64,000 nt of DNA from an uncultured Bacteroidota bacterium (GTDB lineage Bacteria; Bacteroidota; Bacteroidia; Bacteroidales; UBA12077): assembly GCA_913055635.1 (NCBI GenBank), contig CAJXLK010000001.1:160626-224625 (forward strand), read 5' to 3'. Under the pieces are notes generated by a model. It saw only the letters and a list, made by a program, of their open reading frames with translations. It did not search any database and was not told where the DNA came from. The position numbers were made by a program, and so were the translations under genes. Numbering within the stretch: position 1 is the first letter of the stretch; the number at the start of each line of letters is the position of its first letter. Positions 2,211 to 63,492 of this stretch are shown here, in pieces.

Positions 2211-3449
2211 ATGACAGAAAGGAAATTTTCCAAAGTCACCATCAAAGAAACCAACGAAACCCAAAAGGTTCGTATTGGTTCGGATTTGAAGCCAGAAGTC
2301 AGCGATGAGCTGATTGAAAAGTGGCAATCCCTTTTAGACTTGACTGCCAGAATAATTGATGTTCCTTCTGCCTCGATTATTAAACTGCATGAAGATTATG
2401 TCGAGGTGTTTTTAAATAACCAAAATGTCGAGAATCCTTTCTATTCAGGTAAAAAGGTAGAGCTAATTTATGGGGTTTTTTGTGAAACCGTAATTGGTCA
2501 ACAAGATAAGTTATTGATTCCTGATGCCAGAAAGATTCCTATATGGAAAGATAATCTGGAAGTAGACCTGAACATGGTCTCCTATTTGGGGTTTCCCATT
2601 AATTATCCCGACGGGGAAGTGTTTGGTACTGTATGTGTGCATGATAACAAAGAGAACCACTACAGTGAATTCCATAAGGATTTAATGGATAAAATGAGAC
2701 AGCATATAGAGACCGATTTACAGCTTCTTGTTTCAAACCAGCAGTTGAAAAAACTCAATGCCACCAAAGACAAGTTTTTCTCAATTATAAGTCATGACCT
2801 GAAAAACCCTTTCAATTCATTGATTGGCACGAGTAGTTTGCTTATCGACAAAGCCGAACAATATTCACCCGAAAAGGTTCGTCATTTTGCCCAACAGATG
2901 CATGATTCTTCTCAAAACGCATACCATTTACTGGAGAACTTGTTGGAATGGGCAAGAATACAAAGGGGAGAGCTGGAGCCTGATCTGGAAAAAATCAATC
3001 CAAAGGGGGTAATCCATGAAGTAACGCAACAGAGTGAACCCATAGCCAATTCGAAAAACATCAATTTGCAAACAGCTTCTGAAGGAAATCACAGCGTTTT
3101 AGCTGACAGGGAAATGCTAAAGACCACATTGCGCAATCTGGTGACCAACGCTTTGAAATATACCCATCCCGAGGGAACTGTTATAATCAGTTACCAAAAG
3201 AATGAAGAACATCTTCAATTTACCGTATCAGATACGGGCATGGGTATCCCTCCAGAATATCTTGACGGGCTTTTTGAGATAGATTGTAAGCTTTCTCAGG
3301 AAGGAACAGAAAAAGAGAAGGGAACGGGATTGGGGTTGATCCTTTGCAAAGAGTTTGTGGAGAAGCATGGTGGTAAGATTTGGGTGAAAAGCGAGCTAGG
3401 AAAAGGCAGTGATTTTCATTTTACCATCCCACTGGTAAAAACAACTTAG
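2211..3449 (+). CDS. GAF-domain sensor histidine kinase (second of a tandem pair)
   Basis: A 412-residue soluble histidine kinase with the same order as its neighbour: N-terminal strand region (KFSKVTIKETNETQ), GAF domain at about 30-175, HisKA helix with His195 in SHDLKNPFNSL, then a HATPase domain with N box NLVTNALKYT, G1 SDTGMGIPPE, and G2 GTGLGLILCKEF. This copy keeps the usual Pro in the H box and carries the standard ending KHGGKIWVKSELGKGSDFHF. The two proteins align over the whole GAF region, so they probably sense related cues (the ligand is unknown). It is followed by a short GC-rich inverted repeat at its stop codon and by a 34-bp direct repeat. It is an orphan kinase in this window. 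Confidence 0.9.
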   Translation: MTERKFSKVTIKETNETQKVRIGSDLKPEVSDELIEKWQSLLDLTARIIDVPSASIIKLHEDYVEVFLNNQNVENPFYSGKKVELIYGVFCETVIGQQDKLLIPDARKIPIWKDNLEVDLNMVSYLGFPINYPDGEVFGTVCVHDNKENHYSEFHKDLMDKMRQHIETDLQLLVSNQQLKKLNATKDKFFSIISHDLKNPFNSLIGTSSLLIDKAEQYSPEKVRHFAQQMHDSSQNAYHLLENLLEWARIQRGELEPDLEKINPKGVIHEVTQQSEPIANSKNINLQTASEGNHSVLADREMLKTTLRNLVTNALKYTHPEGTVIISYQKNEEHLQFTVSDTGMGIPPEYLDGLFEIDCKLSQEGTEKEKGTGLGLILCKEFVEKHGGKIWVKSELGKGSDFHFTIPLVKTT

Positions 3450-3461
3450 GGTGAGATCACC

Positions 3462-3569
3462 CAAATTTTCTCATCAGGTATTTCTAGGCCATTGATTCTC
3501 TTTGTACAGGGCTTTTGTTTCATCGTAGACCTTTTCAAATTTTCTCATCAGGTATTTCTAGGCCATTGA
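3462..3569. repeat. 34-bp perfect direct repeat downstream of histidine kinase
   Basis: The same 34 bases, starting CAAATTTTCTCATCAGGTAT, occur at 3462-3495 and at 3536-3569, 74 bp apart. Nothing between them looks like a gene. The pair lies between the kinase stop codon and the tRNA-Leu terminator. Confidence 0.85.
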
Positions 3570-3661
3570 ATCAATTCTGTGTACTATTCGGCGGATTGCT
3601 GTAAACAGTAACTTTGAACCACCAATTTTTCGCAATCGGATTTCACCAGTTTGGAAAAAAT

Positions 3662-11980: not shown

Positions 11981-12137
11981 AACCCCGCTTAGCGGGGTCA
12001 AAGAAAATTCAAAAGACCCCGCTTAGCGGGGTCTGTCAAGTAAGGGCTGTCAGGTTCGATTTATCGGGTGCAGCTACAATCCGACCCCGCTAAGCGGGGT
12101 CGAAATTCCGCCTTCGAAGCACCCCGCTAAGCGGGGG
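11981..12137. repeat. REP-like palindrome cluster A, four copies
   Basis: Four copies of the palindrome core ACCCCGCT(T/A)AGCGGGGT at 11982-11998, 12015-12033 (full GACCCCGCTTAGCGGGGTC), 12082-12102 and 12121-12137. The third and fourth read with centre GCTAAGC, the opposite orientation. The fourth overlaps the end of pepD and provides its stop codon. Confidence 0.92.
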
Positions 12138-13599
12138 CTTCTTCACCCGGGATGCTCAAGAGAACTTCCAGCAGCAGATCCCAGAACTTCTGGGTGGTCT
12201 CGATGCTGATGGCTTCTTCCGGGGTATGGGCACCCTTGATGGTAGGCCCGACCGATATCATGTCCAGATGGGGATATTTCTGAAGGAAAAGGCCACATTC
12301 GAGGCCGGCGTGGATGGCCTTGACCTCGGGCTCCTGATCGAAAAGCCGCTGGTAGGAGTCGCGGGTGATCTTCATGATCTCTGAATCGGTGTTGGGTTGC
12401 CATCCGGGATATCCGGTGGAATGATCTACTTTGGCGTTGCCCAGCCGGAAAACGCTCTCGACCATACTGGCGATGTCGTCTTTGGCACTGTCTACCGAAC
12501 TCCTCTGACTGGTCGTCACCTGGAAAGCATCGTTATCCTGAAGTTTGATCGCTGCCAGGTTGGTCGATGTTTCCACCAGATCCTCTATTTCCTGGCTCCA
12601 GGCATGAACCCCGTGTGGGCAGCCATACAGGGCATTGACCATGTCGTGCTGGGTGTCTTCATCGATCACATATTCGGGCATATTGGCTTCTTCAAGGGTC
12701 AGCTTCAGCCCGGGTTCGGTTACTTTTAGTTCATTTTTGACCGCGGCTTCAAACGCATTGAAATACTTCTTGATGTTTTCTACATCTTCGCTGTGAATGG
12801 TGATGTGGGCTTCCGCTTCCCGGGGTATGGCATTGTGGGCGCGGCCCCCCTCAAAGCGTGAGATGCGTACATCGTAATGGTCGGTGATGTTCCACAGAAA
12901 ACGGTTGACGATCTTGATGGCGTTGCCCAGGCCTTTGTGGATCTCATCCCCGGAATGACCACCATTCAAACCGGTTACCTGAATGTGGTAGCCCTGGTGT
13001 TCATCGGGTACATTTTCCCGGTCAAAATCAAATATGGCGGTGGTGTCCGTTCCACCGGCACAACCGATGAACAACTCTCCCCAATCTTCTGAATCCAGGT
13101 TGAGCAGAATCTTTCCGTCAAAAAGGCCGCTTTCCAGGGCCTGGGCTCCGGTCAGCCCCGATTCTTCGTCGACCGTGAACAAACATTCCAGGGGCCCGTG
13201 CGATATTTCATCCGAGGCAAGAATGGCCAGCTGAGCCGCCATGCCAATGCCATCATCGGCCCCCAGGGTGGTGCCGTCGGCTTTGACCCAGTCGCCGTCA
13301 ATATAGGGTTGAATCGGATCTTTCTCAAAATCATGCTCGGTGCCTTTGTTCTTCTCTCCGACCATGTCGATGTGACTCTGAAGAACAACCTTCTTGAGAT
13401 GCTGCATGCCCGCAGATGCAGGCTTATCAATAACCATGTTGCCCGCCGAATCTTTCCGGTATTCCAGATCATGCTTCTTGGCAAAGTTTTCCAAAAACTG
13501 CAGAATCTGTTCTTCCTTCTTGGAAGGCCTCGGTACCTGGCAAATCTCTTCGAAATATTCCCATATGGGCTTGGGTTCTAAATGGCTGAGCTTTTTCAT
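12127..13599 (-). CDS. pepD: Aminoacyl-histidine dipeptidase (cytosol nonspecific dipeptidase), M20 family
   Basis: 490 residues, the normal size for PepD, a cytoplasmic di-zinc peptidase that cleaves dipeptides with broad specificity. Metal and catalytic residues are visible: His76 and Asp78 in LQSHIDMVGE, Asp115 in LGADDGIGMA, Glu145-Glu146 in TVDEESGLTG, Asp in LNLDSEDWGELFIG, and the C-terminal His in TIKGAHTPEE. The lid domain lies between. The last codons and the stop (GCC CCC GCT TAG) are part of a REP-like palindrome, so the tail APA was probably acquired when the repeat arrived. A candidate promoter lies 115-145 bp upstream. Confidence 0.93.
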   Translation of the reverse strand: MKKLSHLEPKPIWEYFEEICQVPRPSKKEEQILQFLENFAKKHDLEYRKDSAGNMVIDKPASAGMQHLKKVVLQSHIDMVGEKNKGTEHDFEKDPIQPYIDGDWVKADGTTLGADDGIGMAAQLAILASDEISHGPLECLFTVDEESGLTGAQALESGLFDGKILLNLDSEDWGELFIGCAGGTDTTAIFDFDRENVPDEHQGYHIQVTGLNGGHSGDEIHKGLGNAIKIVNRFLWNITDHYDVRISRFEGGRAHNAIPREAEAHITIHSEDVENIKKYFNAFEAAVKNELKVTEPGLKLTLEEANMPEYVIDEDTQHDMVNALYGCPHGVHAWSQEIEDLVETSTNLAAIKLQDNDAFQVTTSQRSSVDSAKDDIASMVESVFRLGNAKVDHSTGYPGWQPNTDSEIMKITRDSYQRLFDQEPEVKAIHAGLECGLFLQKYPHLDMISVGPTIKGAHTPEEAISIETTQKFWDLLLEVLLSIPGEEAPA

Positions 13600-18964: not shown

Positions 18965-20080
18965 ATGAAAATCGGTATACTGAAGGAAAACAATGGTGAC
19001 AAGCGGGTGGCTGTTTTGCCAGCCAATGTTGAGACATTGCGCAAGATGCAGGTCACGGTATTGGTTGAGCAGGGGGCCGGTTGGCAAGCCTACATTGCTG
19101 ACCGGTATTATCAGGAAGCCGGGGCTGAGATCAGGCAGGCAGAAAAGATCAGGCAGGAAGCGGATTTGTTGATTCGCATCAATCCCTTCACCCGGGAAGA
19201 GCTTCAGCAACTGGGTGAGGGGAAGGTATTGCTTTCGCTGATCAATCCCCTGAGCAACAAACAAGTTGTTGAGGGAGCGGCCAGGCAGGGGGTGACCACC
19301 ATCAGCCTGGATATGATCCCGCGGAGCACCCGGGCACAGGCGATGGATGTGCTCTCGTCCATGGCTACTACTGCGGGGTATAAGGCAGTTTTGGAGGCAG
19401 CCAACAACCTGCCCAGCTTTTTCCCCATGTTCATGACCGCTGCCGGGACCATTCGACCGGCCAAAGTGCTTGTGTTGGGTGCCGGGGTTGCCGGTTTGCA
19501 GGCGATTGCCACGGCCCGTAAGCTGGGTGGGGTAGTCGAGGCTTTTGATGTCCGCACTGCCGTCAAAGAAGAGGTGGAGAGCCTGGGGGGTAAATTCATT
19601 GAGGTGGAAGGGGCCGCTGATGCCCAGGACAGCAGTGGATACGCCACTGAACAGAGTGATGATTACAAAAGGAAACAGCAGCAGTTGATTCATGATCATG
19701 CCCTTAAATCGGACGTGATCATTACCACCGCCCAGATTCCAGGCAAAAAAGCCCCACTGTTGCTGAAGAAAGAGACGGTAGAGCAAATGCGGGCCGGAAG
19801 TGTGGTTGTTGACCTGGCGGCTGCTTCGGGCGGAAACTGTGAGCTTACCGAAAACAGCCGCATAATCAACCATCAGGGAATCACCATCATCGGTAATTCC
19901 AATTACCCCTCCGAATTGCCGGCCGATGCCAGTAAAATGTTCGGCAACAATTTGGTGAATTTTCTCAAACTGATCATTGATTCACAGGGAAATATGAATT
20001 TGAACTTTGATGATGATATTGTCAAAAATGCCACCATCACCCATAACCATGATATCATCAACGACCGGTTTAAATCATAA
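18965..20080 (+). CDS. pntAA: NAD(P) transhydrogenase alpha subunit, part 1 (NAD-binding domain)
   Basis: 371 residues forming the soluble dI domain of the Re/Si-specific proton-translocating transhydrogenase. It binds NAD(H) on the cytoplasmic face. Visible motifs include MKIGILKENNGDKRVAVLP at the start, the Rossmann glycine motif VLVLGAGVAGLQAIATARKLGG, and the mobile-loop region before EQMRAGSVVVDLAAASGGNCE. Unlike the enterobacterial fused PntA, the alpha chain is split into PntAA and PntAB, as in Rhodospirillum and many Bacteroidota. The stop codon lies at the edge of a palindromic repeat cluster that separates it from pntAB. Confidence 0.93.
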   Translation: MKIGILKENNGDKRVAVLPANVETLRKMQVTVLVEQGAGWQAYIADRYYQEAGAEIRQAEKIRQEADLLIRINPFTREELQQLGEGKVLLSLINPLSNKQVVEGAARQGVTTISLDMIPRSTRAQAMDVLSSMATTAGYKAVLEAANNLPSFFPMFMTAAGTIRPAKVLVLGAGVAGLQAIATARKLGGVVEAFDVRTAVKEEVESLGGKFIEVEGAADAQDSSGYATEQSDDYKRKQQQLIHDHALKSDVIITTAQIPGKKAPLLLKKETVEQMRAGSVVVDLAAASGGNCELTENSRIINHQGITIIGNSNYPSELPADASKMFGNNLVNFLKLIIDSQGNMNLNFDDDIVKNATITHNHDIINDRFKS

Positions 20081-20232
20081 CCCCGCTTAGCGGGGTCTCC
20101 CCGGCCCAACCCCCGCTTGCCCAACCCCCGCTTAGCGGGGTCCGATTTTTTATACCCCCGCTTAGCGGGGTCAGGTTCGGGGTCAGATTTCTTGAACCCC
20201 GCTAAGCGGGGTCGAAAAAAGCGGGGTCGAAA
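20079..20232. repeat. REP-like palindrome cluster B inside the pnt operon
   Basis: Full copies of the CCCCGCTTAGCGGGG palindrome at about 20079-20097, 20123-20142, 20153-20162 and 20194-20214, the last in reverse orientation, plus half copies ACCCCCGCTTG near 20110 and GCGGGGTCGAAAAA near 20221. They fill most of the pntAA-pntAB gap of about 180 bp. Confidence 0.9.
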
Positions 20233-20262
20233 AAATGTCGAATGCCATACAATTTGGAGCTT

Positions 20263-58774: not shown

Positions 58775-58819
58775 GTCATGACCCCGCTTGTCATGACCCC
58801 GCTTGTCATGACCCCGCTT
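58775..58819. repeat. 15-bp tandem triplet built from a half palindrome
   Basis: GTCATGACCCCGCTT occurs three times in a row (58775-58789, 58790-58804, 58805-58819). The last runs into a complete REP-like palindrome at about 58810-58828. Each unit is a half site with a new GTCATG added. Confidence 0.9.
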
Positions 58820-59037
58820 AGCGGGGTCTGTTTGACACCCCGCTTAATAACACCCCGCTTAGCGGGGTCTGTTTGTTAGAAACGTCGTAACACCCCGCTT
58901 AGCGGGGTCTGTTTGTTAGAAGCCTCATAACACCCCGCTTAGCGGGGTCTGTTTGTTAGAAGCCTCGCGGATTATCGGGCTTTGCCGTCATCTCTGGCTG
59001 ATGCCTTGAGGCTTTCGGACTCCCCTTAGCGGGGGAC
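58820..59037. repeat. REP-like palindrome cluster C with a 40-bp tandem array
   Basis: After a truncated half site (ACACCCCGCTTAATAAC), three 40-bp units (58851-58890, 58891-58930, 58931-58970) each start CACCCCGCTTAGCGGGGTCT and continue GTTTGTTAGAA with few changes. A worn copy, CTCCCCTTAGCGGGGGACT, is at 59019-59037. Gap between the DUF5916 and murB stops is 300 bp and holds no gene. Confidence 0.92.
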
Positions 59038-63418: not shown

Positions 63419-63492
63419 TTACCCCGTTCGTAAACGGGATAAGTTCTGTTCTATTTGCTAAGCGGGGTCATTTACCCCCGCTAAGCGGGGTA
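63419..63492. repeat. REP-like palindrome cluster D
   Basis: TACCCCCGCTAAGCGGGGTA (63473-63492) is a full palindrome six bases before the mscS-like stop. A half site GCTAAGCGGGGTCA lies at about 63457-63470, and a separate CCCGTTCGTAAACGGG inverted repeat at 63422-63437. Confidence 0.9.

Follow-up and report, generated by a model that had tools for sequence, protein, structure and literature searches.

A lineage-specific, tagless REP-type palindrome family linked to a single RAYT gene in an uncultured Bacteroidales bacterium

A 15-letter palindrome, CCCCGCTWAGCGGGG, recurs at four loci of the window (the whole 64,000-nucleotide stretch analyzed here) and throughout the genome to which it belongs, that of an uncultured Bacteroidales bacterium (G000; 4.08-Mb assembly in 77 contigs). 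The family is a lineage-specific, tagless REP-type repeat and not a canonical GTAG-tagged REP. Its dispersal in trans by the single RAYT of G000, an HUH/Y1 enzyme of subclass 2.6 (group 5), is the most likely explanation, to which we give a probability of about 0.8. This reading draws on the number of copies, their position and lineage specificity, the empty orthologous sites, the linkage and synteny of the RAYT gene, its catalytic residues, and related hairpins beside other RAYTs; from these, mobilization of the palindromes by the RAYT is inferred. A first-pass annotation of the window had proposed a REP/BIME family moved by RAYT transposases. Its REP reading stands in substance, given the copy number, the position, and the RAYT, but the repeats carry no GTAG or CGTC tag, and inverted BIME pairs are a minority.

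Palindrome copies in the window and the genome

The four loci (positions 11981-12137, 20079-20232, 58810-59037, and 63457-63492) hold 13 exact copies and one copy with two mismatches, in both orientations as first annotated. The shuffle expectation was 0.18, and no shuffle reached 14 copies. Nine of the exact copies read CTTAG on the plus strand (T form), and four read CTAAG (A form). The coexistence of half and full forms, also noted in the first pass, was borne out by half copies (ACCCCGCTT and AAGCGGGGT) beside full ones.

At the first locus, exact matches in the T form (CCCCGCTTAGCGGGG on the plus strand) lie at 11983..11997 and 12017..12031, and two minus-strand copies follow at 12085..12099 (A form on plus, T form on minus) and 12122..12136 (T form on minus). 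The TAG of the latter is the stop codon of a pepD-like gene (12127-13599), whose orthologues stop near the same point on codons of their own. The second locus opens with a plus-strand T form at 20081..20095, immediately 3' of the TAA stop of pntA (20078-20080), and contains exact T forms at 20126..20140 and 20156..20170 (plus strand) and an A form at 20197..20211 (minus strand). It also contains two plus-strand 15-bp tandems, one of spacer and left half-palindrome (GCCCAACCCCCGCTT, twice; 20104..20133) and one of right half-palindrome and spacer (AAGCGGGGTCGAAAA, twice; 20204..20233). At the third locus, all on the plus strand, a 15-bp tandem of left half-palindrome and spacer (ACCCCGCTTGTCATG; 58781..58819) leads into the first full copy, an exact T form at 58812..58826. 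Three exact T forms at 58853..58867, 58893..58907, and 58933..58947 belong to 40-bp tandem units, and the degenerate copy (CTCCCCTTAGCGGGG; two mismatches) lies at 59020..59034. The fourth locus consists of a right half-palindrome (GCTAAGCGGGGT; 63457..63468, no strand assigned) and an exact copy in the A form on plus (63476..63490, minus strand).

The genome-wide count that the first-pass annotation had recommended gave 540 exact copies in G000 and none of the reversed control, which exceeds the 100 copies of a short palindrome per genome expected of REPs in the broad sense. Relatives have nearly none: among 38 relatives, CCCCGCTWAGCGGGG was found only in the congener G002 (2 copies), and four of 394 further genomes sampled from the same class carried one copy each.

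As a single strand, each copy forms a GC-rich hairpin of 6 to 8 bp with the triloop TTA or TAA. The RNA hairpin has a folding energy of -14.9 kcal/mol, and the T and A forms are equally stable as RNA. In the flank table, only A at position -1 and TC at +1 and +2 are conserved, both of which extend the palindrome. The table shows neither the conserved unpaired GT[AG]G or CGTC foot of the GTAG/CGTC-tagged REP superfamilies nor the T-run 3' of the hairpin (the U-tract of an intrinsic terminator). In E. coli, a GTAG-like foot guides cleavage. A search of the window against Rfam returned tRNAs only.

Position and orientation relative to genes

Positions were scored in 1.25 Mb of G000, taken in stretches, with a coding fraction of 0.81 according to a simple codon-usage caller. 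Part of the first sample was picked at known copies, which biases the densities there; position and orientation were repeated in a separate 400-kb sample. Of the 186 copies in the 1.25 Mb, 173 were intergenic, another 10 fell within the final 40 bp of a gene, and 3 lay at gene 5' ends, where the gene calls are probably overextended. Extragenic location, as in REPs in the broad sense, thus applies to 183 of 186 copies when the last 40 bp of genes are included. The initial statement that no copy lies in a gene body is correct in substance; the copy at 12122..12136 overlaps a gene end. Measured against stop codons, as the first pass had advised, clusters lie at a median distance of 23 bp, versus 113 bp to start codons, with 1 to 9 copies per site. 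The further claim that every site adjoins a gene 3' end or fills an operon gap was too strong, since divergent genes flank 9 of the 50 clusters.

At the copy nearest the stop, the coding strand carries the T form in 32 instances and the A form in 4 (P = 2e-6), including 9:1 in the separately drawn 400-kb sample. A replication-strand cause was tested: the bias holds on both sides of the GC skew (21:3 for genes with the skew and 10:2 for genes against it), which makes replication direction an unlikely cause. The orientation bias is real, and because the T and A forms fold alike as RNA, it suggests insertion polarity or a loop-reading factor rather than stability alone. At two loci elsewhere (L023, before position 3190, and L024, near 1533-1700), arrays start immediately after complete intrinsic terminators, each with a GC hairpin and a T-run, which argues against the palindromes themselves being terminators.

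Array structure

Neighboring copies are mostly spaced 28 to 31 bp apart, start to start. Among 129 neighbor pairs, 100 are direct and 29 inverted (24 T>A and 5 A>T), and inverted pairs are therefore not the main unit, as they are in REPINs and BIMEs. Spacers are more similar within an array (0.78) than between arrays (0.51). Their length stays at 15 to 16 bp although their sequences differ from array to array. Half-sites at array edges fall on their own side (left-left, 11; right-right, 13) rather than on the opposite side (1 and 4), as slippage at a hairpin would produce. Arrays seem to grow via local tandem duplication of a unit made up of the palindrome and about 15 bp. Since spacers differ between arrays, the dispersing unit appears to be about 19 bp at most, hardly beyond the palindrome itself; this is very short for transposition and counts against the RAYT reading.

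The RAYT gene of G000

The Y1-type gene whose presence the first pass had asked about exists, with palindromes in its upstream gap. A profile search with Pfam Y1_Tnp recovered no more than a sub-threshold fragment, which lies at the end of contig C51, and a protein query located the remainder at the start of C64, the two contigs overlapping by 77 bp. The pieces (C51:1-227 and C64:1-435) make up the sole RAYT gene found in G000. The split inside the gene suggests an assembly-graph break, possibly due to strain variation, and the protein described here is a reconstruction across that break. The joined product has 194 amino acids, with HFH at residues 52 to 54 and the tyrosine Y127 in YIHQNP. It matches the NCBIfam model for REP-associated tyrosine transposase (REP_Tyr_transpos) with an E value of 6e-19 and a score of 68.3, below the curated cutoff of 80; its Pfam score of 22.8 is just below the cutoff of 23. 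The E. coli TnpA-REP structure 4er8 aligns with an E value of 1.5e-4, tyrosine on tyrosine. Among 80 aligned RAYTs, HFH is present in all and the tyrosine in 79.

Three palindromes lie 268 to 330 bp upstream of the gene and four more one gene downstream, which provides the RAYT linkage within one genome seen for REPs in the broad sense. The closest relatives of the G000 RAYT come from Bacteroidales MAGs. Its motifs are NHFH (published consensus, NH[LIV]H), YIHQNP, and WEYSSF. According to PMC6006769, subclass 2.6, which equals RAYT group 5, is found mainly in Bacteroidetes, has the motifs NHxH, YIH[QN]NP, and SS, and is flanked by "atypical" structures lacking GT[AG]G. The G000 protein agrees in its motifs, its occurrence in Bacteroidetes, and its repeats without GT[AG]G, and is assigned to TnpA-REP subclass 2.6 (RAYT group 5) by motif, without the profile of those authors.

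Sister species and empty sites

The gene order around the RAYT is common to G000, G002, and G003, with a gene upstream that we take to be TPM-domain-like and an unclassified conserved gene downstream, and the three RAYTs form one well-supported clade. The repeat beside it differs in each species. In G003 it is AGCGCTTAGCGC-T-GCGCTAAGCGCT, the core of which occurs 155 times in G003, never in G000, and twice each in G001 and G002. In G002, arrays of CCCCTTAGCGGT are present, with 70 copies by pattern count in that genome and 0 in the others. All three repeats keep CTTAGCG. The same RAYT locus with three repeat expansions in three sister species amounts to a natural experiment on the joint change of a domesticated transposase and its target, and the comparison suggests a concrete candidate recognition motif, GC-TTA-GC. 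In G002 (C17:27281-28987; L062/L080), the 12-bp CCCCTTAGCGGT units run head to tail, at least six per side, around the RAYT together with the gene downstream of it; contig C17 ends within the second array.

Gap lengths, counted from orthologous sequences, differ at sites that are occupied in G000. Between pntA (18965-20080) and the next pnt gene, G000 has 182 bp with four palindromes, G002 has 51 bp without palindromes, and G001 has 7 bp, and the DUF5916-murB gap measures 300 bp in G000 versus 19 bp in G002. Copies were therefore either gained in the G000 lineage or lost in the others, and in view of the copy numbers, gain in the G000 lineage is the simpler reading.

Hairpins beside other RAYTs and origin of the short form

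The flanks of 80 RAYT genes from other genomes, including G002 and G003, were searched for the heptamer GCTWAGC. It occurs 63 times in the 62.7 kb within 400 bp of a RAYT and 6 times in 237.6 kb farther off, an enrichment of about 40-fold. Bulged hairpins are frequent there, formed by two GCTTAGC (or GCTAAGC) heptamers 18 bp apart and laid out as outer stem, TTA, inner stem, triloop, inner stem, TTA, and outer stem. An example from Mariniphaga (L083), CCCGC-TTA-GCCGTT-CCA-AACGGC-TTA-GCGGG, has an outer stem nearly that of the window palindrome. Written by its repeats it is CCCC[GCTTAGC]CGTTCCAAACG[GCTTAGC]GGGT, and removal of one GCTTAGC with the interval leaves CCCCGCTTAGCGGGT, which is the window palindrome except for the last stem base. 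G000 itself retains the bulged form twice (C1:18332 and C1:18425), with outer stem CCCGC/GCGGG, and the 18-bp-spaced form has 0 to 7 copies per genome in relatives. Judging by these forms, the most likely source of the short palindrome is a bulged RAYT-flanking hairpin that underwent deletion between its two direct GCTTAGC repeats. A wider scheme, which we offer tentatively and which may well not hold as a whole, is that group-5 RAYTs read a GC-TTA-GC tip and not a GTAG foot, and that one deletion created a 15-bp minimal palindrome which then spread explosively in this lineage, strand specifically after stops.

Proposed mechanism and alternative explanations

The RAYT would recognize the conserved GC-TTA-GC tip of the hairpin in single-stranded DNA and would cleave and rejoin strands, seeding copies at new intergenic sites. 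Seeded copies may then multiply locally by slippage as tandem units of the palindrome and about 15 bp. Gene-breaking insertions would be lost through selection, leaving survivors just 3' of stops, in operon gaps, and behind terminators. Besides the shortness of the dispersed unit, the RAYT scores below the curated cutoffs, the reconstruction of the gene over two contigs, and the missing GTAG-like foot weigh against this mechanism.

The proximity of clusters to stops, the coding-strand excess of the T form irrespective of GC skew, and the strong RNA hairpin would also be expected if the palindromes were selected mRNA 3'-end elements, either stabilizing hairpins or binding sites, with the RAYT incidental. 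We regard this as unlikely: sister-species orthologues lack palindromes at the compared sites, the repeat differs from species to species, T and A forms fold with equal stability, some arrays stand between divergent genes or behind a terminator that is already complete, and the number of copies per site varies from 1 to 9. A slightly poorer prospect is the passive spread of a self-complementary seed by slippage, template switching, or gene conversion, with no transposase involved. The 15-bp half-unit duplications on their own side of array edges and the tandem units with array-specific spacers fit such local processes, which nevertheless do not account for how copies reached many unlinked gaps, for the core found beside RAYTs of other Bacteroidota genomes, or for the three different repeats at a syntenic RAYT locus.

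Intrinsic terminators that are alike by chance or convergence would account for GC-rich hairpins close to gene ends, and yet the hairpins have no T-run, the identical sequence occurs at unrelated loci and is absent from relatives, and copies form tandems and also occur within the pnt operon; this explanation is very improbable. A CRISPR-like or other defense array, suggested by short palindromic repeats with near-constant spacers of 15 to 16 bp, is hardly conceivable in view of 57 small clusters in 1.25 Mb and spacers that are far too short and are duplicated within arrays instead of unique. Both were rejected, the latter on spacer length and duplication and the former on the missing T-run, and hairpins of this family should not be labeled terminators or CRISPRs in annotation.

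Relation to known systems

The G000 family comes closest to the atypical REPs of subclass 2.6 (PMC6006769), with which it shares the RAYT motifs, the occurrence in Bacteroidetes, the flanking tagless hairpins, and further genomic copies. Unlike the flanking repeats of the relatives examined here, which are often bulged hairpins, it lacks the inner hairpin and has reached 540 copies as a 15-bp palindrome. In GTAG families, REPs lie near 3' ends and some furnish TAG stops (PMC3733652). Like these REPs and the BIMEs and REPINs of E. coli and Pseudomonas (PMC3733652 and PMC3116915), the palindromes are short, extragenic, clustered, and near 3' ends, sometimes supply a TAG stop, and are linked to a single-copy RAYT; they differ in having no GTAG/CGTC tag, in the predominance of direct neighbors (100 of 129) over the usual inverted dimers, and in a dispersed unit of about 19 bp or less. 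The subterminal hairpins of IS200/IS605 elements are likewise acted on as single-stranded DNA by an HUH/Y1 enzyme, but the G000 RAYT is single copy, lies at a locus shared by three sister species, and shows no IS-type movement.

In the literature that we found, repeats of subclass 2.6 (group 5) have so far been described only as "atypical," with no motif derived automatically. Our search on Bacteroidetes palindromic repeats and on the taxon of the motif found no description of the CCCCGCTWAGCGGGG repeat and no defined core for subclass 2.6 repeats, some of which may be listed in the supplementary tables of PMC6006769. The literature searched likewise held no report of the stripped 15-bp form, its expansion to 540 copies, or the turnover among three repeats at a single syntenic RAYT.

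Additional hairpins in Bacteroidota RAYT loci

In the Mariniphaga MAG, a complete bulged REP (L083:3357-3381) lies in frame inside the RAYT gene (3001-3618), between the HUH and Tyr motifs, where it encodes ..TYPLSRSKRLSGY... A REP within a RAYT gene is reported as unique to subclass 2.4 in PMC6006769. Many other Bacteroidota RAYTs are flanked by a second class of hairpins, in which the tip CGGTTnnnAACCG is conserved and the outer stem is specific to the species (L081, L082, L099, L103, L105, L107, L108, L112, and L146); the tip occurs 27 times near RAYTs and 0 times far from them. On the RAYT tree, both tip classes are clustered, and neither forms a single clade.
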